Assembly: GCA_029785825.1 (NCBI GenBank)
Contig: JAFLYY010000001.1
Coordinates: 961,374-1,025,373 of the forward strand
Origin: Nitrososphaerota archaeon
Lineage (GTDB): Archaea; Thermoproteota; Nitrososphaeria; Nitrososphaerales; Gagatemarchaeaceae
Direction of reading: 5' to 3'
Length of the DNA stretch: 64,000 nt
Shown here: positions 13,888 to 48,347 of the stretch, in pieces
How the letters are laid out: every line of letters begins with the position of its first letter
How positions within the stretch are numbered: position 1 is the stretch's first letter
Made by a program: the position numbers and the translations under genes
Notes under the pieces: generated by a model
Seen by the model: the letters and a program-made list of their open reading frames with translations, nothing else
The model's database searches: none
Told to the model about the DNA's origin: nothing

Positions 13888-16800
13888 CTACTTTGCGCGC
13901 CTTCTAACTATGAGGGTCGCGATCGCTATCAGCACGAATGCGACCGCCACCCCTCCGATGATCAGCCAGTTGGTGGCAGGCGGAGGAGGAGACGCCGAGG
14001 AGCTGCTCGAAGAGGTCGGCGTGGTCGAGCGCTGCTGGGTGGCCGAGGTAGACGTCGTGGTCGTAGCGCTGGCGGTCTGGCTCGTCCTGGTCGTGATCGT
14101 GGTGGTAGTAGTGGTAGTCGTCGAGACCGCGTAGAAGCCCGCGGTGACCGTGCCGGGGCCGGCGACCGTCGCGGAGGTGGACGGGGAGCTCGGGGTGGCC
14201 ACCGTTATGTTGCTTGTCGCAGACCACTCGCTGAACCCGAACCCGGACGCGGGGGTCGCCTGTATGGAGATGGCGGAGCCGGCTGGAACCCAGACCGAGC
14301 CGGACGGGGCGGTCGAGCCGCTCCCGGCGGGGGTGACCGCCATGGTGACCAGGTACTGCTCCGAGAAGCTCACGGACACCGTGCCGATGCCAGTCACGTC
14401 CACCGTCCCCGAGGAGGAGGCGGGCGCGTACTGCGCCCCGGAGTAGACAGGGACGGCTGCCACCGTCCAGCTGGCTGTCCCCAGGGGGAGGTTGGAGAAG
14501 ACGATCTGTGAAGTGGTCGAGCTCTGAGTCGTACCGTTGAGCGTCGCGGACCACAGGGTGCCTGTCGGCAGGCCGGACTCTGCGAAGGTCACCTGGCCGG
14601 TCGCGGGGGAGGTGCCGCTCCCACCCGATGAAGCGGGTTGGGCGACGAGGATCTGGGTCCCTGTCAGGGCCGCGACCGGCACGTCCCCGCAGATGGTGTC
14701 GGTCGCGAGGGTGACCGTGACGTTCGCGGCCGCCGCCCAGGCGCCTGTGCTGGAGTCGTAGTAGTACATCTCTGAGGTCGACGAGAGGTGCCCAGCCAGG
14801 GCGGCGTCTGTATCGCAGATGGCCGCGGTCCCGGTGTTCACGTTGGAGATCTTGACGTCGAAGTAGAGCAGCGACGACCCTCCGTAGGGGACCGCTGGGA
14901 GCCCTGGCAGGTACAGCGACGAATAGAGGTAGCTGTCCACGGAGGCGGTCACCGACGGCGAGGTGCCCGTGACCGAGACGACTATGCCGTTGATGGCCGC
15001 CGAGTCGGCCACGAATGACCCGCCGCTCCCTGTCCCCTCGGAGAGGAGGGCCACTGTCGAGCCATCAGCCTGGGGGGCGCTCGCACCGGGCACCACCTGG
15101 AATGGGACGGAGACGGTCTTGAACGTCGAGGTGGAGGTCCCGAAGCCTATCTCCACCGACCAGGTCCCGTTGACGTCCGGCGTGAAGGCGGGCGAGGCCG
15201 CGAACCCCGCGGAGACGGCCGCCTGGGCGGTGGACACCGTCTCCCCCGCCGGATTGACCCAGCTGAAGGTGGCAACCGACGCGAGGGGGTCGGTGGTGGT
15301 GGCGTTGGCCGCCAGGGACTCTCCCAGGGTGATCGTACCGCCTGGGGCGCTGGTCTCGCCGGAGTACTGCAGGCTCCCGAGGACCTTCGCGGAGGTGGTG
15401 TATGTCGAGACCATGGTCACGTTGGCGTAGCTCTCCACCGTCTTCCCCACGAGCACCCCGTAGGTCTCTCCCGCCACCAGCGGGGAGCTGGGGACGAACC
15501 TGAACTCGGTGGCCAGGTGCTCCCCGGTCGGGGCGAGCTGGAGGTCCACAGGGACCACGGTGCCCGTGACGTTGGAGCCCCCGAGCTCCACGAAGATCGA
15601 GGCGGCGGAGCTGAACCTGACGTACCTGCTGAACTGCACCTGCACGTAAGACGACCCGTTGATGTTCACCGCCGAGACCCCGGTCACCGTCGGCGGGGCG
15701 AGGGAGACCATGCCTATGTTGAGCCCCGTGGCCGGCGGAGGCACGTCGAGTATCTCTGTCTGGGCGGTCACGTACCCTGGGAGGGTGAACACCACCTTCC
15801 AGTACCCCTCGGGGACGTACCAGCCGTACTGGCCGAGGGCGTTGGTCAGCTCGTTGTTCTGCTGCGCGTACGCCGCCGCGTCCCAGGGGACCCAGCTCCC
15901 CCCGACCAGCTGGTAGATGGTCGCGGTGACCCCCTCGAGCCTGTTGCTGGTGACGGCCTCGTAGACGTAGCCGCTCGGGTCGTAGACCCAGGTGGGGTTG
16001 GCCACCTCCGTGGTCTGGCCGTTGAAAGTGACGTAGATCGCTCCCAGCCCTCCGTAGCTGCAGTAGTCCAGGGTGGCGGTGTAGAGCCCGTCCGACCCCA
16101 GGGTCGCGATGGCCGATCCTGCCCCGGTTATGGTCACGTTCACGCCGAAGGCGTACGCCGGGTTGGTGATGTTCAGGGTCACGGTGATGGGCATGCAGGG
16201 GACGACGACGTAGGGGAACAGGACCACCCCCTGGCTGGCGTTGAACTCCACGAGCCTCCCGTCGGTCTGCTGCATCGACCAGCTGACCAGGGCTGGGATG
16301 TAGGTGTCGTAGAGGACCATGGCGTTGCCCGACCGCTCGGTGACCCCGGAGGCGAGCTTGGCCACGGCGTACAGGGTGTGGTTGCTGGGGTCGCCGCTCG
16401 CCACGAGGGTGACGGACGCGCTCCAGTAGCCGCCCTGCGGGACCGTGAGGGAGCCGACCGAGCTGTTGCCGTCGTAGATCTGCAGCGCGCTCCCCGGCGG
16501 ACCCTGCCCGGACACGGGGACGGTGGTCGTCTCGACCTGCGAGGGCGCCACTATGCTGATGTGGACCACGGTGACCGTGGTCGCGCCCACCAGCTCCTGG
16601 GTCGTGGCCCCCGACAGGGTGTAGTTGATGAACAGTATCGGCCGGAACGAGGTCCCGTTCCCGATGGCCGAGGTCACGGTGAGGGTGTACCTCAGGACCC
16701 CCGAGGCCCCTGGGGCGAGGCTCCCGAGCTGCACGGCGTAATCTCCCCCGGACAGCGTGCTGCTCGCCGACGCCCCGTTGAGCAGGATGCTGGCGGTGTC

Positions 16801-19800
16801 GAGGGAGGTCCCGCCTGGGACCTGGATGAGGAGCTCGGCGTTGGTGAGGGTCGAGGTCCCTGAGTACGCGTAGGACCCCCTCATCTGGACCTCGCTCCCC
16901 ACTGTCGTCACCGTCGGTGAGGCGACCAGGGAGTTGCCGGGCCGGTCGGTGAAGAGCCCTGCCGGGTAGACGGACATGTTCCCGACGCTGTCAAGCTCCC
17001 CTGACGCCACGGTGGTGGTCACGGTCCCGGTGAGCGTCCCGCTGGTGAGGTAGGCGAGGTACTCGCCGGGCTCGGGGACCGAGAAGTAGAAGGCGGAGGA
17101 CGAGTTGGATATCGAGCCGACGAATGTGCTCAAGCCGCTGGTCGAGTTGTAGAAGTACATCGCGGCGGTCCACCCGGAGGTCACGAGCGAGTCCGTGGCG
17201 ACGTCCACCACCGTCCCCGAGATCACCCCCGGCTGGATCAGCTTGAGGGTCACGGTGGCGCCCACGGTGCTGTTGGTCACCGTGCTGACGCACTCGTTCG
17301 GGAGGTTGGCCTCGGTCCCGGTGATGCAGACGGTGAACGCCTCCCCGGGCTCCGCGACCACCGGGAGGGAGTTGTTGACCCAGTTGGCGTACGGGCCGAA
17401 GATGGCGCCGGTCGAGGACTGGGCGTACAGGTCGAAGTGGACAGCCACCCGCCAGTCGATGGGGAGCGGGCCCTCGAGCTGGCCTCCCACGTACTGCGTG
17501 TAGAGGTTGACGTGGATGTAGCCGTTCAGAAGCGGGACCACGGCGAAGTTTTCGGTGAGGTTCTGCAGCGCCGACAGCGCGAAGTTCGCGCTCGCCTGGT
17601 TGAAGGTGTTGTCGGGGCTGCTGACGACGAGGGTGACGTTCCCGGCAGGGAGGGTGAGGGCGTAGTAGCCTGTCGAGTTGGTCTGGGTCTCGAAGGAGCC
17701 CAGGCTGTCCAGGGCGTTGGTCGAGCTCACGACGCCGGCGGCCACGATGGCCGAGCCCACCGCCGTCCCGTTGGTGTAGGTGACCCTGCCGCTGACGTAC
17801 CCGACCTGGAGTGTCTGCAAGGCGATCGTCTGGAAGTCGTTCCCGGCCGTGGTGGAGAAGTTGGCGGGCGCGAACGGCTGGTAGATCGTGCCCGAGGTCT
17901 GGACGTTGACCGTGACCGTCAGCCCCGTGGCCACGTCGAACGGCATGGTCCAGCCGGTGGAGTTGGTGAAGCTGCTGTCGAAGTACTCCCCGTTCACGGT
18001 GAAGGTCACGAGGAGGTCGGGGGCGGCCTTCCCGTTCTGGTCCTTCAGCTGGACCGCGAAGTAGCTGGTCGAGAAGGAGAGCGCCTGGCTGACGCCGGCG
18101 CTCGTGACCGTGATCGTCCCCGAGGCGGGGGTGACGGAGGAAGCGAGGGGTTCGCATGAGCCGGCGTAGAACGAGTACGTCCCTGTCGGGACGTAGAACT
18201 GCGAGGTGGTGGAGTAGCTGTACTGCGTGACGTTCGCCCCGCCCTCCGTGAGCGTGGACTCCCAGCAGGTGTACGGGGCGAGCCCGGTCTCAGAGAACGT
18301 GACCGCGTACTGCTGGATGAAGGCGATGCTGACAGGCGAGGGGTTGCTCCCGCTGACCGTCACCGACCCGGAGGCGGGCGAGGGGACGAAGCTCGAGTTG
18401 TCGGAGTAGACGTAGTAGGGGTAGGTGCCGCTGGGGACCCTGAACTCTATGGACCCCCCGACCGAGCTGTTGAACTGCCCGTTGAGGTAGACGTACCAGT
18501 ACTGGCCCGAGGGGAGGGTCGACTGGGTGAACAGGACGACGTAGGTCGGGGTGAAGGTTACGTTGACAGTCTGGGGCCCGTTGACGAAGACCGAGCCGCT
18601 GGCGGGGGAGGCGCTGTAGGTGGGGCCGACCTCGACCGAAAAGACGTCGTAGGCGCCGCTTGCCGCCGATATCACTATGGAGGTACCCGTGGTGGACTCG
18701 AAGCCGTAGGACGTCTGGACCCCCCAGGTCTGCCCCGAGGCCAGGCCCGTCTCGGTGAATGTGACCGGGTAGTACTTCACGAAGGCTACGGCCACGGTCG
18801 CGGCCCCGTTGTAGACGAACACGTACCCTGTCACCGGGCCGTACCCCGGAGAGGTCGCGTTGTAGAAGTACTCGCCGTTGGGCTCCCTGAAGGTGACCTT
18901 GGACGTGGTCGAGGCGTTGCTCCCCGTTCCCAGGGCCACCGTCCAGCTCGTCCCCGAGGGGAGGCCCGTTTCGTCGAAGACCACGGCGTAGACGCGTGTG
19001 AACGTCAGGGGGACCGTGGCGTTGGCGCCTGCGACCGTGACGGACCCGGAAGTCGGGGACACGACGTAGCCGCTGACGTGGGGGACGGTGAACTGGTAGG
19101 TGCCGTTGACCTCGTTGAAGGCGAGCGAAGCCGCGGTGGACGAGGCCGTCGTCCCGTTCAGGTCGACGCTCCAGAGGGTCCCCGACGCGAGCCCGGTCTC
19201 AGAGAACGTGACGAGGTACTTCAGCGGCGCGAAGGCCAGGGAGACCCCGGCCGGGGCCTCGTTCACCGTCACCGTCCCCGACGAGGGGGTGACGAAGTAC
19301 CCCTCGGCCGAGGCGGTGAAGGAATAGACCCCGTTGACCTCGAGGAAGGTGACGGCCGCGCCTGTGGACGAGTTGGTCACCCCGTTCAGCGTGACGCTCC
19401 ACGTGGCGCCCGTCTGCAGGCCGGACTCTGTGAACGTCACCAGGTACTTCGCGGCGATCACGGTCAGCCTCAGGGCGGTCGAGTTGGTCCCTCCGCCTCC
19501 GCTGGCGGCCACGGCGAACGAGTATGTCCCCGGGACGACCCCCTTCGATGCCGTGAGGGTGAGGACGGTGCTGCAGCTCGGGGTGCATGAGGCGGGGGAG
19601 AACGACGGGGTCACCCCGGTGGGGAGCCCGCTCGCAGCGAACGCGACCGCCACCGCCGTCCCCGAGATGAGGGTCAGGGTGATCTGCGTCGTGTTGGTGA
19701 ACCCCTGGACGACAGAGAGGGCCGGAGGCGCGGCGGAGATGTCGAACTTGAACGGGGTCACAGTCAGGGTGTACTTCGTGGAGTTGGAGAACCCCCCTCC

Positions 19801-21678
19801 GGCGGCGGTCACCGTCAGGGAGTAGACCCCGGGGGGCGTCGTCGTCGCGGTCGAGACGGTCAGCGTGGAAGAGCAGGACGGAGAGCAGGACGTCGGGGAG
19901 AAGGCGGCGGTAGCCCCCGAGGGGAGGCCTGACGCGGAGAACGTGACCGGGACCGCGGTCCCGGACTTCAGCACCAGGGCGACGGCGGTCGTGGCCGACT
20001 GGCCGGGCTTCACCGAGCCGGACGACGGGGTGGCCGAGACGTCGAACCTGTATGGGACGAGGGTGAGGGCGAACGTGGTCGAGTTCGACCCGGTCCCCCC
20101 GGCGGCCTTCACGGTCACCGTGAAAGTCCCAGTCGCGGCGGTAGTCGACGCGGTTATCGTCATGGTCGAGCTGCACGTGGGGGTGCAGGAGGCAGGCGAG
20201 AAGGAGGCGGTCGCCCCCGAGGGGAGCCCGGAGACCGAGAAGGTGGCCGCCACGGGGGTCCCGGAGGTGAGCGTGAGCGTGACGGTGGCCTTCAGCGACT
20301 GGCCCTGCGTCAGCGTCCCTGAAGGAGGGGCGACGGCGATGTCGAACCTGAAGGGTATCACTGTGAGGGTGTAGGTGGTCGAGTTCACCGCGCCCCCGCC
20401 TGAGGCCGTCACCGTGACCGTGTAGGTCCCCGGCGCGACAGAGGCGGAGAGGGCGATGGTGAGGGTGGAGGAGCAGGTCGGCGCGCAGGAGGTCGGGTTG
20501 AAGGCGGCCGTGGCGCCCGTCGGGAGCCCGGAAGCGGAGAACGTCAGGGTGGGCGGGGCCCCCGAGGTGAGGGTGAGCGTGACGGTCGAGGTTGTCGACT
20601 GGCCCGGCTTGACCGACCCCGAGGACGGAGACAGGGAGATGTCGAACTTGAACGCGGTCACCGACAGGTCGTAGGTGGAGGAGTTTGTGACGCCGTCCCC
20701 TGTCGCGGACACGGTCAACGTGTACGAGCCTGGGACGATGGCGGAAGTGGTGGTTATGGTGAGCGTGGAGGAGCATGTGATGGTGCAGGAGGAGGGGGAG
20801 AAGGACGCGCTTGCGCCGCTGGGGAGCGCAGAGACCGCGAAAGAGACGGAGGTCGGGTTCCCGGACGTCTGGGTCACGGTGACCCCCGTGCTCACCGACT
20901 TGCCGGGGATGACCGAGCCCGTCTTGGGGGTGAGGGAGACGTCGAACCTGACCGGGATCGTGGTCACGGTCAGAGCGTAGGTCACCTGCTCGGAGGCGGT
21001 GGAAGCGGTCCCTGAGACGGTCACCGAGTAGGTCCCTGCGGCCGTGGTCTGTGTCGTCGATATCGTCATCGTCGAGGTGCAGCTGGGGGAGCAGGAGGGG
21101 TTGGAGAAGGCGGCGGTCGCCCCCGAGGGGAGGCCTGACGCGGAGAACGTGACCGGCTCGGTGATGCCGGCGCTGAGCCCCAGCACCACGGTGCTATTGA
21201 CTGAGCTCCCCTGCTGGACGGACCCCGAGGAGGAGCTCAGCGACATCGTGAAGGAGAACGGGGGAGGGGCGGTGGCGCTGTAGTTGAAGAGGGCGCTGGC
21301 GTGATACACCGTCCCGGTGACGGACGGCGACCAGGTGGCGTTGACAGAGTAGAGCCCCGTGACCCAGTTGGTGCCTCCAGCGGAGAAGCTGTAGTTGTAG
21401 TCCCCGGCGGCGTCCAGGGGAGGGGCCGCCGTCCTGACCAGGGTCTTGGTCGGGTTGTAGACCGACAGGGTGACGCTGGTCCCTGACGCGGGGGCCGGGG
21501 TGACCGACCCGTTGAGGGACACGAGGTCGGAGCAACAGTAGAAGGTGGCGCCGGGGACGACGGTCAGCGCGTAGGTGGTGGCGGGGGTCGGCAGGTACAC
21601 CGCCGACGCGAAGCTCGAGGGGGCGAGGAGGATCAGCGCGAACAGCGCGAGCCATCGGTGGAAGGCAGGGGACCTCAA
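13888..21678 (-). CDS. Giant repetitive surface protein with Ig-like and ESGL tandem repeats
   Basis: The protein has 2596 residues, from TTG at 21678. Signal peptide, residues 7-26. Residues 34-138 form the beta-sandwich shared with the 391-residue neighbour. Then come six Ig-like repeats of about 98 residues with a conserved Cys pair ('SCxPxCSSTLTI') and six modules of about 75 residues beginning 'VTFTETGLxxGTxW', followed by carboxypeptidase-regulatory-like folds ('GYVSGRVTYTNGTAVGSAIV') and Big-type domains. Near the end are the 'FDVKISNVNTGTAAIC...ICGDVPVAALTGT' module, one more ESGL unit, a poly-Thr stalk and a C-terminal helix with 'RRRAK'. No TATA-like box is evident in the 130 bases upstream, so it is probably transcribed with the protease gene before it. 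Likely adhesive or structural. Confidence 0.85.
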   Translation of the reverse strand: MRSPAFHRWLALFALILLAPSSFASAVYLPTPATTYALTVVPGATFYCCSDLVSLNGSVTPAPASGTSVTLSVYNPTKTLVRTAAPPLDAAGDYNYSFSAGGTNWVTGLYSVNATWSPSVTGTVYHASALFNYSATAPPPFSFTMSLSSSSGSVQQGSSVNSTVVLGLSAGITEPVTFSASGLPSGATAAFSNPSCSPSCTSTMTISTTQTTAAGTYSVTVSGTASTASEQVTYALTVTTIPVRFDVSLTPKTGSVIPGKSVSTGVTVTQTSGNPTSVSFAVSALPSGASASFSPSSCTITCSSTLTITTTSAIVPGSYTLTVSATGDGVTNSSTYDLSVTAFKFDISLSPSSGSVKPGQSTTSTVTLTLTSGAPPTLTFSASGLPTGATAAFNPTSCAPTCSSTLTIALSASVAPGTYTVTVTASGGGAVNSTTYTLTVIPFRFDIAVAPPSGTLTQGQSLKATVTLTLTSGTPVAATFSVSGLPSGATASFSPASCTPTCSSTMTITASTTAATGTFTVTVKAAGGTGSNSTTFALTLVPYRFDVSATPSSGSVKPGQSATTAVALVLKSGTAVPVTFSASGLPSGATAAFSPTSCSPSCSSTLTVSTATTTPPGVYSLTVTAAGGGFSNSTKYTLTVTPFKFDISAAPPALSVVQGFTNTTQITLTLISGTAVAVAFAASGLPTGVTPSFSPASCTPSCSTVLTLTASKGVVPGTYSFAVAASGGGGTNSTALRLTVIAAKYLVTFTESGLQTGATWSVTLNGVTNSSTGAAVTFLEVNGVYSFTASAEGYFVTPSSGTVTVNEAPAGVSLAFAPLKYLVTFSETGLASGTLWSVDLNGTTASSTAASLAFNEVNGTYQFTVPHVSGYVVSPTSGSVTVAGANATVPLTFTRVYAVVFDETGLPSGTSWTVALGTGSNASTTSKVTFREPNGEYFYNATSPGYGPVTGYVFVYNGAATVAVAFVKYYPVTFTETGLASGQTWGVQTSYGFESTTGTSIVISAASGAYDVFSVEVGPTYSASPASGSVFVNGPQTVNVTFTPTYVVLFTQSTLPSGQYWYVYLNGQFNSSVGGSIEFRVPSGTYPYYVYSDNSSFVPSPASGSVTVSGSNPSPVSIAFIQQYAVTFSETGLAPYTCWESTLTEGGANVTQYSYSTTSQFYVPTGTYSFYAGSCEPLASSVTPASGTITVTSAGVSQALSFSTSYFAVQLKDQNGKAAPDLLVTFTVNGEYFDSSFTNSTGWTMPFDVATGLTVTVNVQTSGTIYQPFAPANFSTTAGNDFQTIALQTLQVGYVSGRVTYTNGTAVGSAIVAAGVVSSTNALDSLGSFETQTNSTGYYALTLPAGNVTLVVSSPDNTFNQASANFALSALQNLTENFAVVPLLNGYIHVNLYTQYVGGQLEGPLPIDWRVAVHFDLYAQSSTGAIFGPYANWVNNSLPVVAEPGEAFTVCITGTEANLPNECVSTVTNSTVGATVTLKLIQPGVISGTVVDVATDSLVTSGWTAAMYFYNSTSGLSTFVGSISNSSSAFYFSVPEPGEYLAYLTSGTLTGTVTTTVASGELDSVGNMSVYPAGLFTDRPGNSLVASPTVTTVGSEVQMRGSYAYSGTSTLTNAELLIQVPGGTSLDTASILLNGASASSTLSGGDYAVQLGSLAPGASGVLRYTLTVTSAIGNGTSFRPILFINYTLSGATTQELVGATTVTVVHISIVAPSQVETTTVPVSGQGPPGSALQIYDGNSSVGSLTVPQGGYWSASVTLVASGDPSNHTLYAVAKLASGVTERSGNAMVLYDTYIPALVSWSMQQTDGRLVEFNASQGVVLFPYVVVPCMPITVTLNITNPAYAFGVNVTITGAGSAIATLGSDGLYTATLDYCSYGGLGAIYVTFNGQTTEVANPTWVYDPSGYVYEAVTSNRLEGVTATIYQLVGGSWVPWDAAAYAQQNNELTNALGQYGWYVPEGYWKVVFTLPGYVTAQTEILDVPPPATGLNIGMVSLAPPTVTGVSAVNINGSSYVQVQFSRYVRFSSAASIFVELGGSNVTGTVVPVDLQLAPTGEHLATEFRFVPSSPLVAGETYGVLVGKTVESYANVTMVSTYTTSAKVLGSLQYSGETSAPGGTITLGESLAANATTTDPLASVATFSWVNPAGETVSTAQAAVSAGFAASPAFTPDVNGTWSVEIGFGTSTSTFKTVSVPFQVVPGASAPQADGSTVALLSEGTGSGGSFVADSAAINGIVVSVTGTSPSVTASVDSYLYSSLYLPGLPAVPYGGSSLLYFDVKISNVNTGTAAICDTDAALAGHLSSTSEMYYYDSSTGAWAAAANVTVTLATDTICGDVPVAALTGTQILVAQPASSGGSGTSPATGQVTFAESGLPTGTLWSATLNGTTQSSTTSQIVFSNLPLGTASWTVAAVPVYSGAQYAPASSSGTVDVTGIGTVSVSFSEQYLVTMAVTPAGSGSTAPSGSVWVPAGSAISIQATPASGFGFSEWSATSNITVATPSSPSTSATVAGPGTVTAGFYAVSTTTTTTTTITTRTSQTASATTTTSTSATQQRSTTPTSSSSSSASPPPPATNWLIIGGVAVAFVLIAIATLIVRRRAK
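18080..19453 (-). repeat. Six tandem ESGL-type modules
   Basis: Each unit of about 75 residues opens with a variant of 'YLVTFTESGLxxGTxWSVTLNG' and closes with 'P(S/T)SGSVTV...V.L.F'. The six openings include 'FTESGLQTGATW', 'FSETGLASGTLW', 'FDETGLPSGTSW', 'FTETGLASGQTW' and 'FSETGLAPYTCW'. These modules are widespread in secreted proteins of acidophilic and soil archaea. Confidence 0.8.
19453..21258 (-). repeat. Six tandem Ig-like repeats with a conserved Cys pair
   Basis: Units begin 'FDIS.SP.SGSVKPGQS' and continue 'VTFSASGLPSGATAAFSP.SC.P.CSSTLTI...GTYTVTVTASGG...NST.Y.LTV'. Six copies follow one another at about 98 residues. The Cys pair is kept in all, suggesting a disulfide-stabilised outside protein. 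Confidence 0.85.
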
Positions 21679-21808: not shown

Positions 21809-24800
21809 TCACCCTACGACGACCGTGACGGTGGTGGACAGGGAGACGGGGACGTCGCTGAGCGTGGTTACGAACGAGGTTATCGTATAGGTCCCGGGGG
21901 CAAGCGTCTGGACGCCGAGGTAGACGGAGCCGCTCCCGAAGGAGTTCAGGCTCAGGGAGACGGCGACGACCTGCACCTCCTGGCCGGTGGTGGCGTTGTC
22001 GACCTCGAAGAACACGATGGCGGGGAGATTGTAGAGGAGCTGGTTCGAGTACGTGACGTTCAGGTAGTTCGAGCCCGCGAGGACCGTCTCTGCGGGGGTC
22101 CCCAGCGTGACGAAGGACTGGTCGAGGGCGGGCGGAGAGTAGACGTTGACCTTGTCGTTGTTGCAGTTGTTGTTGGCGTAGTTGTTGTTAGCCCCGTTCT
22201 GCAGGTAGATGCAGATCTGGTTGTAGGCGATGTCGTTGTTCGTCGCCGTGTTGTTCGCAGTGTCGATGAACCCTATCCCGGCCTCGTCGTTCTGGATGTT
22301 CGAGCCGGATATCATGTTCCCGGCGGCCGAGGACCCGTTGATCGCGACCCCGAAGCCGACTGCTGGGGAGGCGACGCCGGTCCCTCCGATGCTCCCGCCC
22401 TGGACCGTGTTGTTGCTCGAGTCGGTGATGAACACCCCGGCCGCCTGCTCGCACCCCGCCGAGGGGTTGCACGCCCAGCCGTTGCCGTAGGCGCTGTAGT
22501 TGAAGACCTTGTCTCCCTGGGTCCCGCCTGCCAGCTCGATGCCGTTCATCCCGTTGTACGCAGACATCCCGGCGGTGATGGTGTCGTTGCCTCCGGGACC
22601 TGAGACCAGGATGCCGTCGTTTGAGTTCTTGAACGTCTGGGTGCCGGTGAAGACGTTGGTCCCCGTCGACCCCGTCACCTCTATCCCGTTGTTCCCGTTG
22701 CCGGCGGCCTGGTCTCCCGCGAACCCCACGTCGAAGCCGCTGAGGGCCCCCTGGAACTTCGACGCGTTGAGGAGGAACCCGTCGTTGCCGTTCCCGGGGA
22801 CCTGGAGGGAAGGACCCACGCAGACGTAGGGCCCGCAGAGCCCGAAAGACATGCCGCCTGCGTAGCTAATGGCCACCTTGCCGCCCTGGGCGCCGTTTAA
22901 CGCGACGCCGTTGCCCAGGTTGGCCCCTGAGGTGTCGAAGGCCGATATGGAGTAGTTCACGTTGTTGTACTGGAATCCGTCAGAGCCCCCGAAGACAGCG
23001 AGGTTGCCGAAGCTCAGCACCCCCTGCTCGTCGGTGAAGCCGATCCCCGGCCCGGTCCCCGAGGTGGCGTTCCCGTTGAAGTATGCGGAAGAGCCAGCGA
23101 CCACAGACGTGAAGTTGCAGTTGCACCCCGTCTTGTCGTAGAAGGGCGGGAAGTTCACCAGGGTGTTCCCTGGGGCCTGCTGGTTCAGCAGTATCCCGCC
23201 GTCCGGGTTCCCGAAGGCGACCGCGCCTGTGACGCTGACCACCGACGAGTCCGCCTGGAACCCGACTCCGTTCCCCAGTGCGAAGTCCCCTTGGGAGAGC
23301 ACCACGGAGTTGTTGGTCGCGAGGACCCCCACCCCGTCGGAGTACACCATGTTGCTGCCGAGGAAGACGCCGGAGCAGCTGGCGACCGGGCACGGGAACG
23401 GCCCGTTCAGGTTCTGGCCCTGGCCGTCGACCGCTATCCCTGCCCCGTCGTAGGAGGCGGTGTTGGAGAACACGTAGACCGGGCCGCCTGTGTCTGCCCC
23501 TGTCACGTTGACCCCGGCCAGGCGGTTCCCGACGGCGATGTCGCCGGCGACGAAGGCCCCGACAGCCTGCGGGTCCTGGACGAATATCCCGTTGGCCCCG
23601 TTCCCGTAGGACTGGTCGTTGACCACGGCGACGCCCGTGCCGTCGTTCCCGAGGATGCCGAAGCCGTCCTTGCCGTTGAGCAGCGCGACGTCGTTCGCCA
23701 GCGCCGAGGAGCCTCCCGTGGGCGGGAAGTTGAGGAGGGCGAAGCCGTCCTTGCCGTTGCCTACGCTCAGGATAGACCCCACCGTGGCGCTGCTGTTCTG
23801 GAAGACTCCGTCCCCGGCGTTCGACAGCGCGTAGTCGACGACTACCATCGGAGAGGTCGCGTAGGGGGTGTTCAGGGTGATGCCGTTTCCGCTGCTCCCC
23901 TGCACCCAGTTGTCGACGATGACGTACGAGGAGCTGTAGTTCCCGGAGAGGGAGATCGACGTGGTGTTGAGCCCGGCGATGACATAGGGGTTGGATGCCG
24001 AGCCGTTGCCTCCGACCACGCCGTTGGCGCTCGTGAACCCTGAGGAGTTCGTTATGCTGACTGGCGCGTGCGTCGGCAGCGTCACGAAGAACGAGGTCGC
24101 CCCGCTCCCCGCGTCCCCTGCTCCGTCATACCCCCCTATGCTGACCGAGTAGTTCCCCGCGACAGCGTACGGCTGCGAGAGCACAGGCGCCTCGGAGGGG
24201 TTGACCCAGGTCCCCGTGGCGGAGTCGTAGGTGAGCTGGAGGTAGTAGCCGCCGAAGCTCGCCCCGTCGGCTCCTATCGAGACTTCGGCCGCGACGCTCC
24301 CCGTGGTCACGGGCGCGCCGTTCGGATATGACAGCCTTGCTGAGATCAGCTCGCCGTTGCCCACGTTCGCGCTGGCGGAGACCCTGGCGCTGCTCGTCGA
24401 GCCGGTGACGGTCAGGGAGCTGGGCGCGACCCTTACGACCGTCGAGAATTCACCGGAGTATCCGTTGACGGTGTCCCCCTGCACCGTGACGGTGTAGAAT
24501 CCCGACGGCATGCCGGCGACCGTCTGGAAGGTCCCGGACCAGAGCCCGGTGAGGAAGTCGAACGTCAGAGGCACCGTGCCGAGGACATTCCCGCCCCCTG
24601 AGACGACGGCGCTGAAGTTCCCGCTCATGGCCCCCGTGGACGCGTAGATGCTGATGGGGTCCCCTACGACGTAGGAGGGGCTGTCCGTGAACGGGAAGAC
24701 GTCGAGGCCCACGTTGAGCCAGAAGTAGGCGCTCCCCTGGTTGCCGGAGGAGTCGGTCCCGCCCACCGTCATCACCCAGGGCCCCTGGCCGGGGTTCGAC

Positions 24801-27800
24801 GGGATGTTGAAGGTCCCGACCCACATGCACCCGGGGGCGCCGGAGAAGTTCAGCCCGCACTGGTAGGAGAGGGGGACGCTCCCTTCGGAGGGGCCCGAGG
24901 GGGTACCGAGGTTGAAGGTGGCGGTGAAGGTGCCGCTGGTCACCTCGGTTCCGTCGGGCGCTGTGACTACGGCGGCGACCGGGACAGACTGGCCTGGGAG
25001 CCAGTAGGGGTAGAGGGGTGAGAAGACCGTGACCCCGTCCCCGACCGAGGCGGTGGCGTACCCCGCGCCGGACTGGGTGCCGTTGACCGCGTCCACCGTC
25101 ACGGACCATTCGCCTGGAGCGGCGGTGCTGTTCACCGGGAAGCGGCCCGACCACTGGCCTGTCGTGGAGTTGAACGAAAGAGGGAGGCCGGTGACGTACG
25201 GCTTACCGTTGGGAAGGGTGACGGTCGCGGTGACTGTCCCCGTACCCACTGTGACGGAGCCTGAGAGGCCCTTGGCCGTGACGCTGGCCGTGACCTCGAC
25301 GGTCGAGCCGTAGGGGACCGACTGCGCGGGGTTCTGGATGAGGCTCGACGACTGCAGCGCGACAGGGGAGTAGTACATCGTGTTGTACCAGTCTCCCACC
25401 CACTGGTTGTTGAAGAGGCCCTTGACGTAGGGCTGGGCGAAGATGTAGGTCCCGTTAGGGATGGGGGTCCAGACGAAGATCTGGTTCTGAGCCGCCATGC
25501 TGTAGAGGGTGGAGTCGCAGGTGGAGGCCGCCGTCGGGGTGGGCGGGAAGATGCAGGCGTTGACCTCGGCCTGGACCGTGGAGTTGTCGAAGTATCCGTT
25601 GTACGGCGACGGGGACATCAGCGGGTTGAAGACGCTCTCGCCGAAGGGATACTGGAAGTCGGCTCCCCAGCCAAAGCCCATGAAGTTAGGGAAGGTCGAG
25701 GGGGACGACATGAGCTGGCCGTAGTAGGAGGAGTTCACCCCCACCGCCGTGACGTTGATCCCGAACACCCCGAGGCTGCTCTGCAGCGTGGAGTAGGTGT
25801 TCCCCTGCAGCGGAGGGACGTAGTAGTAGGGGATGCTGGCGAGCAGGGTGCCGCTCGAGTCCCCGATCGACGACCCTGCGAGGACAGAAGTGCCGTTCGA
25901 AAGCGTGAAGGTGGTGGGGACTTCGATGTAGAAGTTCCCCTGGTAGCCGGCGGCCTCGAAGTAATCGTATGCCGCCGTCGTGTTCTGCGCGGGGATGGGG
26001 AGCCCTCCGGGGTTGTAGGAGGAGCCGTCTCCGGGGACCAGCGGCCCCAGGAACTCGCTCCCGTATGGAGTGCCCTGGAAGTAGTTGGGGGCGTTGAGCG
26101 CCGTGTAGTTCAGGGCGTCGGCGACCCCCTTCCGGAAGTCGGCGATGTTCAGGGGGAGGGCGTGAGAGTTCATCGCGAGGAAGAGCGCGAAGTCAAAGGG
26201 GCCCAGGTTCCGCAGTATCTGGTCGAACGAGAAGTAATCTTTCAAGTAGCCGTTGTACATGTTACCCCAGTTGCTAATCGGCGCCGCAGACAGCTGCGCC
26301 TGGTTGGTCCCGAAGTCGTTGAACGCCTGCGACAAGTTGCTCCACGGGCTGATGACGACCTCCGGAATCATGGCCTGGCCGAGGACAGTTCCCTTCAGGC
26401 TCGGGTCGCCGCTCCCCCAGTAGTTGGGGTTGGCGACCAGGACGATGGGAGTGAGCCCGGGCCCCACCGACTGTACCATGTAGGGCCCTGTTCCGGGGCC
26501 TCCGTTGCTGTTGAACCAGCCGTTCTCGGTGTTGTTCTGCACCCCTCCGTGGGCGTCGACGTAGGCAGGGTCGACGATCTGGGCCCCGGTGAACCCGCTC
26601 CAGAACTGGGGGGCGAAGGTCCCCAGGGCGCCGAGGTACTTGGCCTCGAAGGTGCTGGAGTTGTAAGCGACCAGGGCCTGGCTGGGGTAGCTCATTATGG
26701 AGTCATAGGTGGCGTTGGTCGGGTCGAAGTTGGAGAGCATGTTGTCGAAGAACTTCACGGCGATGTTGCAGCTGGCCTGCGTGTCGAGGTTCGCCGGCTC
26801 TCCGGTCACCGCGGCGATGGCGTTCCTCGCTCCCCAGGGGAAGGCGGCGCCGCAGCTGCTGAAGGAGTAGGAGCCCGAGCCCAGCGGTGCGCCGGCGGTC
26901 AGGTTGTAGAGGACCTGGTTCCAGTTGAACGGCGCGATGCCCGACGGCGCGTTCTCGTAGAGTAGCCGCGCGATGGAGAACCATGCGTCGTAGGCCGACA
27001 GCTTGCTCCCGTCGGAGAAGGTGACGTTGCTCCTGATCTGGAAGACGGTGTAGTTGGACCCCGTGGTGTAGCTGCTCGCCAGGGCGGGGACGAACTGGGT
27101 CCCCGAGGTACCGTTCATCTCGACGAGGTCCTGGAAGACGGCGTTGAGATAACTAACATCCTGGCCGTAGAAGGCGGTGGCAGGGTCGAGGGAGTCAGGG
27201 GCGGAACCCGTCGACTCGTCTACGAGGACATTGGGGTTGGACGGGCCGTAGCTCCCGCCGACCAGGTCCAGCCCGGCCTGGACGGAGAGCTGCGAGGAAC
27301 CTGACTTCGACAGGATCTGGGACAGCTCGCCCACGTTGGGGGATCCGATCCCTGTCAGGGGGTCCCAGCCGGTCCCGGCCTGGTAGGGGTTGTTGTTCCC
27401 GACGGTGACGTCGTGGAACGCCTTCGCGTACTCTGCCGGATTGTTCAGGATGGAATACAGCGTCGGGTTGATGTAGCCCAGGGGGTGGGCTGCAGCCTGG
27501 TCGATGAGCGCCATGGAAGCTGCCCACGACGGGGAGCCGACGCTCGTCCCGCCGACGATGTAGCCGCACATGCCCTTACCGCAGGAAACGTCCACCGCGA
27601 CCCCCGTCTGGACGTCAGCATCCCAGGCGACGTCGGGCGCGCCCCTGGCGCCGTTGGCTGTGACCCCGGGCCCGCTCTGCCATGCGGGCTGGCTGAACAG
27701 GGTGCTGTAGCCGCCGCCCGTCCCCCAGCCGTAGAGGTTGTTCCAGCTCCAGGCCGTCTCGGTCCCATAGCCGCCGGTCGCGTTCATGAACGGCGGGCTG

Positions 27801-29176
27801 AGGTATCCAGAGGTGGTGTTCATGTAAAGGGTCGTCCCCCCGACCCCGGTCACGTACGGGTCGGTCGAGGGATAGATCGCTCCTCCGTACGGGGAGGTCT
27901 GCCCGAAGGCCTGGTCGTAGGCTCCCCAGTCCCCGCTGGCGGCAAAGACGGTGATCCCCTGGGCGGCCGCCTGCTGCATCACCTGGTCGAGCCACGGGTA
28001 GTTCTCCCCGAAGACCGGGGCCACTGCGGCGGAGGAAGCGATGTCGTTCTCGGGGATCCCCCAGCTGTTGGAGATGATGTTGTTGGAGGTGGGGCTTCCG
28101 TAGGAGTTGACCGCGGCCTCCTCGGCGTCATAGAGCGCCTGCGCGTTGTTCGAGCCGATGTACAGGTTGATCTTGGCTCCGGGGGCGAGGGCGTGCGCCC
28201 ACTCCACGTCGAGCGCGATCTCGACGTTCCAGCCAGTCACTATGCCCATTGTCATGTTGCACGGGCCGTCGATGCATATCGTGTTCACAGACGTGGTAGG
28301 GATGCCGAACTGCTGGCTGAAGTTGTTGAGCTCGTCCTGGATGTACGGGTCGCCGTAGGCGTCCACGATGGCGATAGTCACCCCGGTCCCGTTGATGTTG
28401 CGGTTGTACAGCGAGGTGAGGTTGTAGCTCTGGGCGATCTCCGAAGGAGAATAGGCGAAGAAGTTCCCGGGGGTCTGGCCGGGGTTCTCGTAGCTCTGAT
28501 AGAGGGTCCTGTAGAGCGGGACAGCCCCGTGCGCCTGACCGGACGACTGCCAGTTGTCCATGCCGTAGATCATCAGGAGGTTTCCGAACTGGTCGGGGAG
28601 CTTCGCCTGCGAAGACGCAGAGTAGAAGCTAGCCCCTTTGTACTGGTAGTCCTGTATCTGGGTCTTGAGCGCCTGGTCGAACTCGCTCACCGAGCCGTGG
28701 GCCTGCAGGACGAACTGGTCCGGGTTGAGGCTGACGCTGCCAGGGGAGACCTGCCCGCCCGTCGTCACGGTGATGCCGTACTGCGCCAGATACGACTGGA
28801 GCTGTGCGAGCTCGCCGGCGTCCGGACCGAAGAGCGTGTCGTACTGCTGCGCGGTGAGGTACTTGTGGTAGTAAGGAGAACCTGGGTCGTTCATCTGCGC
28901 CAGGAACTCGTCGAGCTGCTTGACGTTCGTCGCAGGGAGGACGAAGCTCACGCTCATGTTCGCTGTCGGGGCGGTCAGCCCGACCTCCTTGGCGTAGCTC
29001 AGGACGGACGGGAGCTGCGTGGTGATCGTCGCGTAGGAGTTGGACCCTCCGCCAGACGCGAAGCTGACGAGGACCAAGGCGTTCGAAAAACCGGTCACTG
29101 ACAGCAGGACGAGCGCGAGCAGAGCGGCCAGCTTCCTGCTAGAGCCACGCGAGCGATGACGTGGGCGGTGACTCAT
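21809..29176 (-). CDS. Secreted sedolisin (S53) protease fused to a peptide-binding domain and a beta-helix
   Basis: The protein has 2455 residues. Signal region 14-40. Residues about 70-215 are a pro-kumamolisin activation domain ('FVLPATNVKQLDEFLAQMND', 'SPYYHKYLT'). The S53 catalytic domain spans about 235-620, with all expected residues: E319 and D323 in 'WNVEIALDVEW', oxyanion D416 in 'ASGDWG', Ser545 in 'GGTSVGSPSW', and the C-terminal Ca site 'FHDVTVG...GWDPLTGIGSP'. From about 640 to 1240 follows an oligopeptide-binding (SBP_bac_5) domain with 'SLDPATAFYG' and 'VTFSDGSKLSAYDA'. Then come Ig-like domains and a long right-handed beta-helix with many 'GNGxDGFxLL' turns. There is no C-terminal helix, so it is probably released or held non-covalently. 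ATG start; a perfect palindrome lies just upstream. It leads the minus-strand run of three surface genes. Confidence 0.9.
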   Translation of the reverse strand: MSHRPRHRSRGSSRKLAALLALVLLSVTGFSNALVLVSFASGGGSNSYATITTQLPSVLSYAKEVGLTAPTANMSVSFVLPATNVKQLDEFLAQMNDPGSPYYHKYLTAQQYDTLFGPDAGELAQLQSYLAQYGITVTTGGQVSPGSVSLNPDQFVLQAHGSVSEFDQALKTQIQDYQYKGASFYSASSQAKLPDQFGNLLMIYGMDNWQSSGQAHGAVPLYRTLYQSYENPGQTPGNFFAYSPSEIAQSYNLTSLYNRNINGTGVTIAIVDAYGDPYIQDELNNFSQQFGIPTTSVNTICIDGPCNMTMGIVTGWNVEIALDVEWAHALAPGAKINLYIGSNNAQALYDAEEAAVNSYGSPTSNNIISNSWGIPENDIASSAAVAPVFGENYPWLDQVMQQAAAQGITVFAASGDWGAYDQAFGQTSPYGGAIYPSTDPYVTGVGGTTLYMNTTSGYLSPPFMNATGGYGTETAWSWNNLYGWGTGGGYSTLFSQPAWQSGPGVTANGARGAPDVAWDADVQTGVAVDVSCGKGMCGYIVGGTSVGSPSWAASMALIDQAAAHPLGYINPTLYSILNNPAEYAKAFHDVTVGNNNPYQAGTGWDPLTGIGSPNVGELSQILSKSGSSQLSVQAGLDLVGGSYGPSNPNVLVDESTGSAPDSLDPATAFYGQDVSYLNAVFQDLVEMNGTSGTQFVPALASSYTTGSNYTVFQIRSNVTFSDGSKLSAYDAWFSIARLLYENAPSGIAPFNWNQVLYNLTAGAPLGSGSYSFSSCGAAFPWGARNAIAAVTGEPANLDTQASCNIAVKFFDNMLSNFDPTNATYDSIMSYPSQALVAYNSSTFEAKYLGALGTFAPQFWSGFTGAQIVDPAYVDAHGGVQNNTENGWFNSNGGPGTGPYMVQSVGPGLTPIVLVANPNYWGSGDPSLKGTVLGQAMIPEVVISPWSNLSQAFNDFGTNQAQLSAAPISNWGNMYNGYLKDYFSFDQILRNLGPFDFALFLAMNSHALPLNIADFRKGVADALNYTALNAPNYFQGTPYGSEFLGPLVPGDGSSYNPGGLPIPAQNTTAAYDYFEAAGYQGNFYIEVPTTFTLSNGTSVLAGSSIGDSSGTLLASIPYYYVPPLQGNTYSTLQSSLGVFGINVTAVGVNSSYYGQLMSSPSTFPNFMGFGWGADFQYPFGESVFNPLMSPSPYNGYFDNSTVQAEVNACIFPPTPTAASTCDSTLYSMAAQNQIFVWTPIPNGTYIFAQPYVKGLFNNQWVGDWYNTMYYSPVALQSSSLIQNPAQSVPYGSTVEVTASVTAKGLSGSVTVGTGTVTATVTLPNGKPYVTGLPLSFNSTTGQWSGRFPVNSTAAPGEWSVTVDAVNGTQSGAGYATASVGDGVTVFSPLYPYWLPGQSVPVAAVVTAPDGTEVTSGTFTATFNLGTPSGPSEGSVPLSYQCGLNFSGAPGCMWVGTFNIPSNPGQGPWVMTVGGTDSSGNQGSAYFWLNVGLDVFPFTDSPSYVVGDPISIYASTGAMSGNFSAVVSGGGNVLGTVPLTFDFLTGLWSGTFQTVAGMPSGFYTVTVQGDTVNGYSGEFSTVVRVAPSSLTVTGSTSSARVSASANVGNGELISARLSYPNGAPVTTGSVAAEVSIGADGASFGGYYLQLTYDSATGTWVNPSEAPVLSQPYAVAGNYSVSIGGYDGAGDAGSGATSFFVTLPTHAPVSITNSSGFTSANGVVGGNGSASNPYVIAGLNTTSISLSGNYSSSYVIVDNWVQGSSGNGITLNTPYATSPMVVVDYALSNAGDGVFQNSSATVGSILSVGNGKDGFALLNFPPTGGSSALANDVALLNGKDGFGILGNDGTGVAVVNDQSYGNGANGIFVQDPQAVGAFVAGDIAVGNRLAGVNVTGADTGGPVYVFSNTASYDGAGIAVDGQGQNLNGPFPCPVASCSGVFLGSNMVYSDGVGVLATNNSVVLSQGDFALGNGVGFQADSSVVSVTGAVAFGNPDGGILLNQQAPGNTLVNFPPFYDKTGCNCNFTSVVAGSSAYFNGNATSGTGPGIGFTDEQGVLSFGNLAVFGGSDGFQYNNVNYSISAFDTSGANLGNGVALNGAQGGKVAISYAGGMSFGLCGPYVCVGPSLQVPGNGNDGFLLNASKFQGALSGFDVGFAGDQAAGNGNNGIEVTGSTGTNVFTGTQTFKNSNDGILVSGPGGNDTITAGMSAYNGMNGIELAGGTQGDKVFNYSAYGNGWACNPSAGCEQAAGVFITDSSNNTVQGGSIGGTGVASPAVGFGVAINGSSAAGNMISGSNIQNDEAGIGFIDTANNTATNNDIAYNQICIYLQNGANNNYANNNCNNDKVNVYSPPALDQSFVTLGTPAETVLAGSNYLNVTYSNQLLYNLPAIVFFEVDNATTGQEVQVVAVSLSLNSFGSGSVYLGVQTLAPGTYTITSFVTTLSDVPVSLSTTVTVVVG

Positions 29177-29344: not shown

Positions 29345-30253
29345 TCAGAGGTAGACTGCTGCCGCTATGGCGAGCAGAGAGAAGACCAAAGGCAGCGGGA
29401 GCGCGGGGAGGGCCTCGTGACTCCCCGAGTGGAGGAGGGCGAGGGTCAGGGAGAACCCCGCTACGACTGCGACGGAGGCCATCAGGCCGGCGGCAGGGCT
29501 GAACAGGAAGCCCATCGAAGCCATCAGGGAGTAGAAGAACAGGTCGCCGAACCCTATCCCGGTCCCGCCCACGCTGACCAAGAACATCCGCTCCAGCCTG
29601 TCGGGCATAGCCGAGACAGCTTTGGCGAGCGGGCCCCTCAGTACCGCGAATGCGTCCCAGGCTGCGTAGGCGATGGGGAGGAGGATGAGCGTAGTCAGAG
29701 GGAGGTAGATCGCGCAGGCGACCGCAAGGCCTGCGGTCAGGTACGAGCCGAAGAGGAAGGAGAGCGCAGGAGGGGCCTTCCCGGCGGCGGAGAGGACGTA
29801 GACGGCCCAGAGCACGCAGGGGACGAGCGCCGCCAGAAAAGGTCCGAGGGGTCCCAGCGACAGGAGCCCCACCGCCACCCCTCCGTAGCCGAGGCCCGCT
29901 GATATGGGCAACCAGAGCCTCCCTCTGTGCCCCCTCAGCAGCAGATAGGCCAGCAGGAACGTGGCGACGGCCGTCAGAGCTACGAAGGCGAGGCCGGAGG
30001 CGGCCAGGCCGCCGGGCGAGGGACCCAGCGGCTTGACCTGGTAGGGAGTGGAGGCGCCGCCGAGCACCACGTGGGTGATGTTGGAAGCGGTCCCCAGGCC
30101 CTGGACCTGGACGACGGCTGCGAGCGGACGGTTGATGTAGAAGAGGAAGAAGGCGAAGAGAAGCTGGGCCGCGACGTAGGCTGTGGGGAACAGCAAGCCT
30201 CCCCGGGCCTCCGGCGGGTCTGAGGTGGCGCGACCGGCGGGGGAAGAGGTCAT
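29345..30253 (-). CDS. Presenilin-like aspartyl intramembrane protease (A22 family)
   Basis: The 302-residue protein has about nine membrane helices. The three family signatures occur in order. 'AAWDAF' carries Asp200, in place of the usual YD. 'GIGFGDLFFYSLM' carries the GxGD motif with Asp237. The PALP motif is at 283-286 ('HEALPALPLPL'). The family cleaves membrane-spanning helices and includes archaeal presenilin homologues. I chose ATG 30253. The frame is open further upstream to 30547, but that part is Arg/Ser-rich and crosses the divergent RHH gene's promoter. A plausible role is clearing signal-peptide remnants or membrane stubs left by the many secreted proteins nearby (inference). 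Confidence 0.85.
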   Translation of the reverse strand: MTSSPAGRATSDPPEARGGLLFPTAYVAAQLLFAFFLFYINRPLAAVVQVQGLGTASNITHVVLGGASTPYQVKPLGPSPGGLAASGLAFVALTAVATFLLAYLLLRGHRGRLWLPISAGLGYGGVAVGLLSLGPLGPFLAALVPCVLWAVYVLSAAGKAPPALSFLFGSYLTAGLAVACAIYLPLTTLILLPIAYAAWDAFAVLRGPLAKAVSAMPDRLERMFLVSVGGTGIGFGDLFFYSLMASMGFLFSPAAGLMASVAVVAGFSLTLALLHSGSHEALPALPLPLVFSLLAIAAAVYL

Positions 30254-30376
30254 GTGCGAGAGCGGGCCCGAGGGCCTGTCTGCGGCGGGGGCGGTCGGCG
30301 CTTTCAGCCTGATGTGCAAGGCGATGCACACCAATGTGACATGTTTTCTATGTTTTCGGAATCTGGGGTTCATCCT

Positions 30377-30386
30377 GCTTATAATC
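30377..30386 (+). promoter_or_regulatory. TATA-like box for the small RHH gene
   Basis: GCTTATAATC lies about 37 bases before TTG 30418. A purine-rich GAGGAGGAA follows between box and start, so this gene seems to combine a promoter close by with a real ribosome-binding site. Confidence 0.5.
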
Positions 30387-30417
30387 GGCCCGCGTAGAGG
30401 ACGAGGAGGAACGAGAT

Positions 30418-30594
30418 TTGAGCAACAAGAAGACGGACGGATACAGGACGATACGCATCCAGGATGCGATCTATGCCGAGATCGAAAAGATGACGAAGGA
30501 AGAGGACTCGTTCTACAGGAGCGTCTCCGAGTTCGTGCACGAATCACTCCGGATCAGGCTGCAGGAGATCCGGCAGGGTAGAAAGAAGAGCTAG
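30418..30594 (+). CDS. Small ribbon-helix-helix (CopG/MetJ-like) protein
   Basis: The 58-residue product begins at TTG behind a strong GGAGG motif. 'YRTIRIQDAIYAEIEKM' is the beta-strand plus first helix and 'FYRSVSEFVHESLRIRLQEI' the second helix of an RHH DNA-binding fold; the tail is basic ('RQGRKKS'). RHH proteins act as dimers, often as autorepressors or antitoxins. No toxin partner is recognisable: the next gene ends tail to tail with this one and also carries an RHH-like segment. Target unknown. Confidence 0.75.
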   Translation: MSNKKTDGYRTIRIQDAIYAEIEKMTKEEDSFYRSVSEFVHESLRIRLQEIRQGRKKS

Positions 30595-47045: not shown

Positions 47046-48347
47046 ATGAGACGGGAGAGAGGGTTGTCGCGCTCTAAGGAGTTCTCTGTCTTCGGCGAGG
47101 ACTACGGCACCTCGGAGCTGAAGTTCGGCCCGGCCACCCTCGGCAACATCCCCGACGCGATAGAGAACAGAGGCTACTTCCCGGACACCCGCTCTTCCAT
47201 GGTGAGGATGACCGGCGGGGCGGACAAGAAGCTCCTGGTGGTGGGGCCGGACGTCTCGAACTTCGTGGAGGCCAAGCGGGACATAGCCGAGAGGATGGTC
47301 TACCCGATGCGGAGCGGGGTCATCGACAGGGACGACGACAGGTCGTGGTCGGTGGTCAAGGAGCTGACCAGGTACGCGCTGCTCAGGCACGTCCCCGAGA
47401 CCCCCGGGTTCGAGGGGGTGAAGGTGGTCGCGGCGCTGTCGGCGGCGGCGCCGAGGTACATGTACGACAGGCTCTTCGAGATACACAGAGAGATCAACCA
47501 GGAGGAGGGGAGGAACGTCGTGAAGGCCATCTCCATCATCCCCCAGCCCTTCGCCGTCGCGATATCGCAGAAGGTCCTCGCGTGCACCGTCCTCGAAGCG
47601 GGTGCCGGAAATTGTCAAGTGGCGCCCGTCAGCAGCGGGATGATCTTCAACGCGCTGATCACCATGAACCGCGGGGGCGGGGACTGCGACCTGGTCGCAG
47701 CCGAGATACTGAGGGACGCGGGGTACGGTGACCTGGCCAGGGAGCCGAAGCTGGTCAAGCTGTTCAAGGAGGCGGTGGGGCTCGTCCCGAAGAGCCTGAA
47801 GGAGGTGATGGCGGACAAGAGCAACCCCAAGCACGGGTTCGTCTTCAGGATCCCGAACACCAGGATATCCATCGACCTCGACAAGAACAGCTGGCAGAGG
47901 TACCTCATCGGCGAGTACTTCTTCGACCCGTCCAACGAGTACTACGCTTCATACTACAGGCGCGGGTTCCCGAAGCCGGCCGACTCGTACGCCGAAGGGA
48001 AGGCCATCTCCGGCACCACCGACCTCGCCGAGGTCATAATCCAGTCCGTCCAGAAGTGCAGCTTCGAGATCCAGCCGGCGCTCTACAGGTCCATCTTCCT
48101 CTCCGGGGGAGGGTTCTCCTGGCAGGTCCCCCAGGGGACGGAGCCGTTCGCTGTCGACTCCTCCACCAAGCTCAGGCTGATGCTCGAGGAGAAAGGGATC
48201 CAGGGGGTCGACGTCAAGCTCACTAGCCACCCCGTCTACAACGTCTGGCAGGGGTGCGTCGCCTACGGGATGTACATCCCGGACGACTTCACCTGGGACT
48301 GGGACGAGCGCGAGGGGTGGCAGTACCTGGACGGGAAGCAGAGCTAG
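47046..48347 (+). CDS. Crenactin-like actin homologue
   Basis: 433 residues from ATG 47046, near the length of known crenactins. TTG 47064 is an alternative that sits 30 bases after a CCTTAAAG box. Actin landmarks appear in order: phosphate-1 'EDYGTSELKFG' (residues 18-28), 'PMRSGVIDRDDDRSW' near 88, phosphate-2 'LEAGAGNCQVAPV' near 183, and adenosine-side 'FLSGGGFSW' near 350. The phosphate-2 loop has E-A-G-A-G-N rather than actin's D-S-G-D-G; as I recall, crenactin has a similar variant. Crenactins form filaments linked to rod shape in Thermoproteales, where arcadin genes accompany them. None are seen here. Confidence 0.8.
   Translation: MRRERGLSRSKEFSVFGEDYGTSELKFGPATLGNIPDAIENRGYFPDTRSSMVRMTGGADKKLLVVGPDVSNFVEAKRDIAERMVYPMRSGVIDRDDDRSWSVVKELTRYALLRHVPETPGFEGVKVVAALSAAAPRYMYDRLFEIHREINQEEGRNVVKAISIIPQPFAVAISQKVLACTVLEAGAGNCQVAPVSSGMIFNALITMNRGGGDCDLVAAEILRDAGYGDLAREPKLVKLFKEAVGLVPKSLKEVMADKSNPKHGFVFRIPNTRISIDLDKNSWQRYLIGEYFFDPSNEYYASYYRRGFPKPADSYAEGKAISGTTDLAEVIIQSVQKCSFEIQPALYRSIFLSGGGFSWQVPQGTEPFAVDSSTKLRLMLEEKGIQGVDVKLTSHPVYNVWQGCVAYGMYIPDDFTWDWDEREGWQYLDGKQS

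Follow-up and report, generated by a model that had tools for sequence, protein, structure and literature searches.

Insertion of a complete solute-binding domain between the protease and Ig-like parts of a secreted archaeal S53 protein

The window analysed here (the whole stretch of 64,000 nucleotides of DNA from a Nitrososphaerota archaeon, with positions counted from its first letter) contains at 21809-29176 (-) a single uninterrupted frame for a protein of 2455 amino acids, and the different parts which can be recognised in this protein are listed in Table 1. The Pfam cut-offs with which the scores in this table should be compared are 23.5 bits for Pro-kuma_activ, 32.4 bits for SBP_bac_5, 32.8 bits for MG2 and 23.6 bits for NosD. 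The MG2 score was obtained at about residues 1292-1364 upon scanning of this region alone, and the NosD match, which covers residues 2161-2360, scores 26.3 bits, or 32.1 bits if the region is scanned alone. Of the beta-helix, the C-terminal part alone is over the cut-off of the NosD family; the score for the Beta_helix family (19.4 bits) is under its cut-off, and no sequence match to the beta-helix region was found among solved structures. A preliminary description of this DNA had read in one open frame an S53 protease (sedolisin) followed by an oligopeptide-binding domain, and the continuous frame as well as the Pfam and PDB matches bear this out. The Ig-like domains and the beta-helix that were listed next are also found, but the pro-domain was omitted from the list and the beta-helix exceeds the cut-off in its C-terminal part only.

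Table 1. Parts of the 2455-aa protein and their positions in the window
Feature	Position in window	Strand	Evidence
Signal peptide, sole hydrophobic segment (residues 1-40)	29057..29176	(-)	Hydropathy peak at residues 16-40; sequence
Pro-kumamolisin activation domain (residues 61-207)	28556..28996	(-)	Pfam PF09286, 88.9 bits
S53 (sedolisin/kumamolisin) catalytic domain (residues 241-627)	27296..28456	(-)	PDB phmmer, kumamolisin 1t1e, E 5.9e-50
Inserted SBP_bac_5 domain (residues 640-1275)	25352..27259	(-)	Pfam, 99 bits; borders against free SBPs and S53-Ig orthologs; model
Ig/MG2-like stalk (about residues 1280-1700)	24077..25339	(-)	MG2, 33.9 bits; BLASTP 31-40%
Right-handed parallel beta-helix region (about residues 1760-2360)	22097..23899	(-)	NosD, 32.1 bits
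C-terminal domain of about 100 aa	21812..22132	(-)	30-41% matches at ends of 970- and 1065-aa frames

Beyond the signal peptide, no hydrophobic segment was detected in the 2455-aa chain with a hydropathy window, and due to this the protein is expected to be exported but not anchored in the membrane by itself. The Ig/MG2-like stalk is shared (BLASTP identity 31-40%) with three proteins from the same genus (loci L052, L053 and L054) and with a protein from a different family of the phylum (L191), which are described below. The C-terminal domain is also found as the last part of further secreted proteins from this family (L193 and L194), and its role is possibly in surface attachment or sorting.

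The proteases of the S53 family act at acid pH and cut off their own pro-domain. In searches with phmmer against the PDB, kumamolisin structures match the catalytic domain with E values from 1e-43 to 6e-50, and in the alignment E319, D323, D416 and S545 occupy the positions of the catalytic Glu, the Asp, the oxyanion Asp and the Ser (in a GTS context) of kumamolisin. A calcium site near the C-terminus of this domain is formed by D589, V590, G601, G603 and D605, which are likewise aligned with kumamolisin; the assignment of the catalytic residues and of the calcium site in the preliminary description was thus correct. Our protein shares with kumamolisin and other S53 sedolisins (e.g. PDB 1t1e) the N-terminal pro-domain characteristic of Peptidase S53 and the catalytic domain with its Glu-Asp-Asp-Ser residues and calcium site. 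However, whereas kumamolisin stops after the catalytic domain, the 2455-aa protein continues with a solute-binding protein (SBP) domain, Ig-like domains, a beta-helix and the C-terminal domain.

The SBP_bac_5 match, located at residues 695-1190, covers positions 2-364 of the 368 positions in the PF00496 profile. Residues 640-1276 were modelled with AlphaFold2 from an alignment of 58 sequences, which are translations of homologous loci, and the resulting model has a mean pLDDT of 90.9 and a pTM of 0.89, with no residue below 50; a model based on 14 close homologues gave, in contrast, a pLDDT of 37. The model has the two-lobed fold of a cluster-C SBP, and upon its comparison with solved structures by Foldseek the top matches were OppA (1ola, E 4.2e-27), MppA and the Bacillus OppA, while DppE was also matched. 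These proteins and DppA, all of them cluster-C (SBP_bac_5) members, resemble the fused domain over the entire fold (TM-score by target 0.68-0.83) and have the same ligand aspartate. However, OppA, MppA, DppA and DppE are separate anchored proteins, whereas the fused SBP is an internal domain of a protease that has neither an anchor nor a permease of its own. The domain had earlier been described as a full oligopeptide-binding domain, and in terms of its completeness and fold this description holds.

Cluster-C proteins bind not only peptides but also nickel chelates, heme, sugars and opines. In accordance with this, the 118 PDB sequences which match the SBP profile include dipeptide-, oligopeptide-, heme- and nickel-binding proteins, and therefore for the modelled domain the fold class is sure, but the ligand is not. 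In Salmonella OppA, the amino group of the peptide is held by Asp419 (PMC5736914). The equivalent residue in the alignment is D1173 (in the motif GWGADF), which is invariant in the close SBP group; its presence is necessary but not sufficient for a peptide-specific SBP of the OppA/DppA type. Further, twelve close free SBPs have 180 invariant columns in common, of which 155 (86%) are kept and 25 are changed in the fused copy, at an overall identity to these proteins of 47-52%, and the most divergent free SBPs of the set keep 91% of the same columns. The retention of 86% of the invariant positions at about 50% identity fits continued constraint on the fused SBP. A loss of the peptide pocket, which would have spoken against the earlier description, is not seen, as the model is confident and both D1173 and the 155 invariant positions are kept. 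That the fused SBP binds peptides is likely but, in view of the other ligands of cluster-C proteins, not certain, and because the domain lies on a long branch (0.59, with a placement support of 87/84) its specificity may have changed.

Orthologs of the protein and relatives of its SBP were sought with residues 1-1279 in all 46 genomes of the family. In three genomes of the same genus (L052, L053 and L054), the S53 domain is 62-68% identical to that of the 2455-aa protein, but it is joined directly to the same Ig domains and no SBP is present; the protein from L052 also ends without a beta-helix. If the insert is left out of the alignment, the S53 domain, a short linker and the first Ig domain are contiguous between the 2455-aa protein and these orthologs. 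The relatives of the SBP (44-53% identical), on the other hand, are encoded on their own, in frames of about 720-810 aa, in which a hydrophobic transmembrane helix and a Ser/Thr-rich linker precede a conserved YGPxN start, and which end with YYSPV or YYQPV. The limits of the fused SBP are the conserved YGPxN at its start and the YYSPV of the free proteins at its end, and the membrane anchor of its free relatives is absent; neither a lipid nor a transmembrane anchor of its own was found. Since the free SBPs share both of these end points and the orthologs run from S53 directly into Ig, the insert corresponds to the body of an SBP without its anchor, placed in the S53-Ig linker. By parsimony on these sequences the SBP is a lineage-specific gain, and the one-frame architecture together with its origin by insertion is well supported, to the point that we have little doubt about it. 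The three orthologs have kept their catalytic residues and show no recognisable pro-kumamolisin domain, which is found in the window protein and in the related protein from the genome G668; the pro-domain has apparently been lost in these three proteins.

In most of the named loci from close relatives, the free SBP adjoins a divergent DppBCDF operon, and in the genome studied here the same DppBCDF operon (locus L059) has its own anchored SBP. In a phylogenetic tree the fused SBP is placed beside the operon-linked clade but outside of it, and the branch of the genome's operon SBP is 0.29. We therefore reject the possibility that the insert was copied recently from the Dpp SBP of this genome: the two are 48-49% identical and the fused SBP branches outside that clade on a long branch, whereas the genome's own Dpp SBP is 63-66% identical to other Dpp-linked SBPs of its clade. 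In the origin that we propose, the recipient would have been a secreted acid-type S53 protease, which in one lineage acquired a complete cluster-C (OppA/DppA-like) domain within the flexible segment that joins the catalytic part to the Ig domains. An SBP related to the anchored one beside the conserved DppBCDF peptide permease would have been the donor, its body being taken over without the N-terminal anchor and Ser/Thr linker. The named SBP relatives are from Nitrososphaerota/Thaumarchaeota MAGs, and the isolate names of several of these suggest samples from acid mines or acid springs, which fits with proteolysis at acid pH.

In order to place the fusion among other archaea, genomes of the family (46), the order (201), the class (400 and 350) and the phylum (398) were surveyed. 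Among the matches listed, from about 740 distinct genomes, no second S53-SBP frame was found, and apart from the window's own frame those containing an SBP were of at most 961 aa; as few candidates were scored per genome, rare cases may be missed by these surveys. Additionally, in a scan for S53 domains no S53 was within reach of the free SBPs in the best 32 of the 78 named SBP loci, and the plasmid records gave at best matches to S53, none of them covering 80% of the S53-SBP query. No S53-SBP fusion and no study of the 2455-aa protein was found in the literature searched, whose scope leaves out most subscription journals. The preliminary description had inferred a fixed unit for protein digestion and product capture; however, with three close orthologs lacking the SBP and no second case among the matches listed from about 740 genomes, a fixed combination is not supported.

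A different module is present at the same joint in a 2624-aa S53 protein from G668, which belongs to another family of the phylum (L191:3-7874 (-)). This protein has the same pro-domain and S53 domain (48% identity over 51-634), an insert at the same joint and the same Ig domains (31%), but the approximately 360 aa inserted in it show no relationship to the SBP and no Pfam match. By eye this insert looked propeller-like; however, in view of the lack of a Pfam match, or of a match to the rest of the G668 protein, its identification as a propeller was not retained. After the Ig domains the G668 protein has further repeats of the TFTEQGLPSGTTWSVTVNG type, which are also seen in the window at 13888-21678. 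In different archaea the S53-Ig joint is thus empty or occupied by either the SBP or another module, and from these sequences it seems to accept other modules too. By the features tested, both domains are ordinary members of their families, except that the SBP lacks the features of a transport component. The protein is a new domain architecture made of known families.

As a rule, solute-binding proteins occur either as separate components of importers or as sensor domains. For the fused SBP, the explanation that we favour, with a probability of about 0.5, is that the gained domain is an accessory module which holds peptides or unfolded or extended chains near the protease. According to this explanation, the protein would be exported and its pro-domain then removed at low pH, giving an active protease, and the beta-helix and C-terminal part would attach it to the cell coat or matrix. 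Close to the active site, the SBP would bind peptides or extended chains, so that the substrate is held or the products are retained locally, similar to the role of the binding module in a polysaccharide-degrading enzyme. Capture of the products of the protease by the fused SBP is possible, and it is unlikely that the latter serves a permease as its dedicated receptor. Because the fusion is known from a single genome, selection for the fusion itself cannot be demonstrated. On a broader and clearly more tentative reading, the S53-Ig linker of archaeal sedolisins may be a site for the exchange of accessory modules, and in the present case an ABC-type receptor may have been captured as the substrate- or product-binding module of the protease ("cut and hold"), a role undescribed for this family in the literature searched.

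Among the other explanations, the one which survives best, although it is unlikely, is that the protein is a self-processing polyprotein, in which S53 would cut the linkers after export and free the protease, the SBP and the stalk. S53 enzymes do remove their own pro-domain, and short polar linkers without conservation are located around residues 633-640 and 1275-1290; however, an SBP freed in this manner would still be without an anchor.

A second explanation, also improbable, is that peptides released by the protease are carried by the fused SBP, which docks on the DppBCDF permease in place of the free SBP. The insert does come from an SBP family linked with the conserved DppBCDF operon, and this operon is present in the genome. 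However, the operon has its own anchored SBP, the fused domain has no anchor and is embedded between two other domains, and its branch is about twice that of the operon SBP (0.59 versus 0.29). The preliminary description had envisaged delivery to a permease lacking its own binding protein, but no such orphan permease was found: three DppBC-type permease loci were found in the genome (the L059 operon, contig C5 and C1:400-407 kb) and each of these has its own SBP. Domain scans around the fused gene, within the window, also revealed no permease or ABC ATPase beside it. Since the fused SBP has no anchor and no linked permease, and the matching permease has its own receptor, the transfer of peptides to a permease is less probable than was assumed earlier.

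A third explanation, for which the chances are likewise slim, is that the protease is regulated, with the SBP closing on a peptide and switching S53 on or off, by analogy with MltF, whose regulatory domain is SBP-like. The hinge-bending fold is intact in the SBP model. In MltF the binding of a muropeptide to the regulatory N-terminal domain activates the lytic transglycosylase domain (PMC10746161), and this provides a precedent in which an enzyme is likewise fused with a ligand-binding regulatory domain. However, MltF is a different enzyme with an SBP of a different family, and for the S53-SBP protein activation triggered by a ligand is only proposed. Further, the orthologs work without an SBP, as assumed from their intact catalytic residues, and the SBP is tied into the protein via flexible linkers.

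That the insertion is neutral or decaying and has no role is quite improbable. Its occurrence in a single genome, its long branch and the changes at 25 group-invariant positions would agree with this; however, 642 codons have stayed open, the fold is predicted to be intact, 86% of the invariant positions and the ligand aspartate are kept and the codon composition is that of its neighbours. An error of assembly or frame is very improbable and finds no support: although only one genome has the fusion, it lies on a 1.7-Mb contig, both junctions are in frame and in inter-domain linkers at the domain limits, third-position GC is alike (0.90-0.92) in the S53, SBP, Ig and helix parts, and, as the insert and the other copy in the genome share only 48% identity, there is no repeat to cause a misjoin.

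The presence within a protease of a complete SBP from which the anchor has been removed illustrates how binding modules are acquired by the enzymes with which acidophilic archaea degrade proteins outside the cell. The orthologs without the insert are natural controls at hand for a two-domain protein consisting of a protease and a peptide receptor. For genome annotation, this case is also a warning that a match to SBP_bac_5 need not indicate a component of a transporter.

Some observations were also made on other SBPs and on the genes surrounding the fusion. A second SBP_bac_5 protein of the same genome (L061:9426-11927 (+); G000:C1, about 405.4-407.9 kb) has 834 aa and a C-terminal transmembrane anchor, and its residues 53-373 correspond to the C-terminal half of the profile (198-492), while residues 416-644 correspond to the N-terminal half (12-212). 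Based on this order the protein appears to be circularly permuted. In three SBPs of about 828 aa from the same order (L195, L196 and L197), the C-terminal half is also first and the second half matches weakly. The SBP match on contig C5 (20.8 kb) of the genome G000 has a bit score of 168.4 and a frame of 631 aa, both of which are as in G029:C112, which may mean that it was transferred recently or that contig C5 does not belong in the bin.

Directly upstream of the gene for the 2455-aa protein, at 29345-30547 (-), is a gene for a presenilin-like GxGD intramembrane protease. Genes of this kind adjoin S53 genes at four loci, viz. the window, L056:7452-8333, L058:12826-13830 and L065:11635-12540, and in three of these (the window, L056 and L065) they lie directly upstream and are read from the same strand. 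The giant exported proteins that are clustered with the 2455-aa protein include a secreted Kelch/InlB-repeat protein of 2874 aa (window 2860-11484 (-)), and a further neighbouring giant secreted protein is a repeat protein of 2596 aa with a C-terminal transmembrane helix. An actin-family protein is encoded in the window at 47046-48347 (+) (PF00022, 41.9 bits; cut-off 27).
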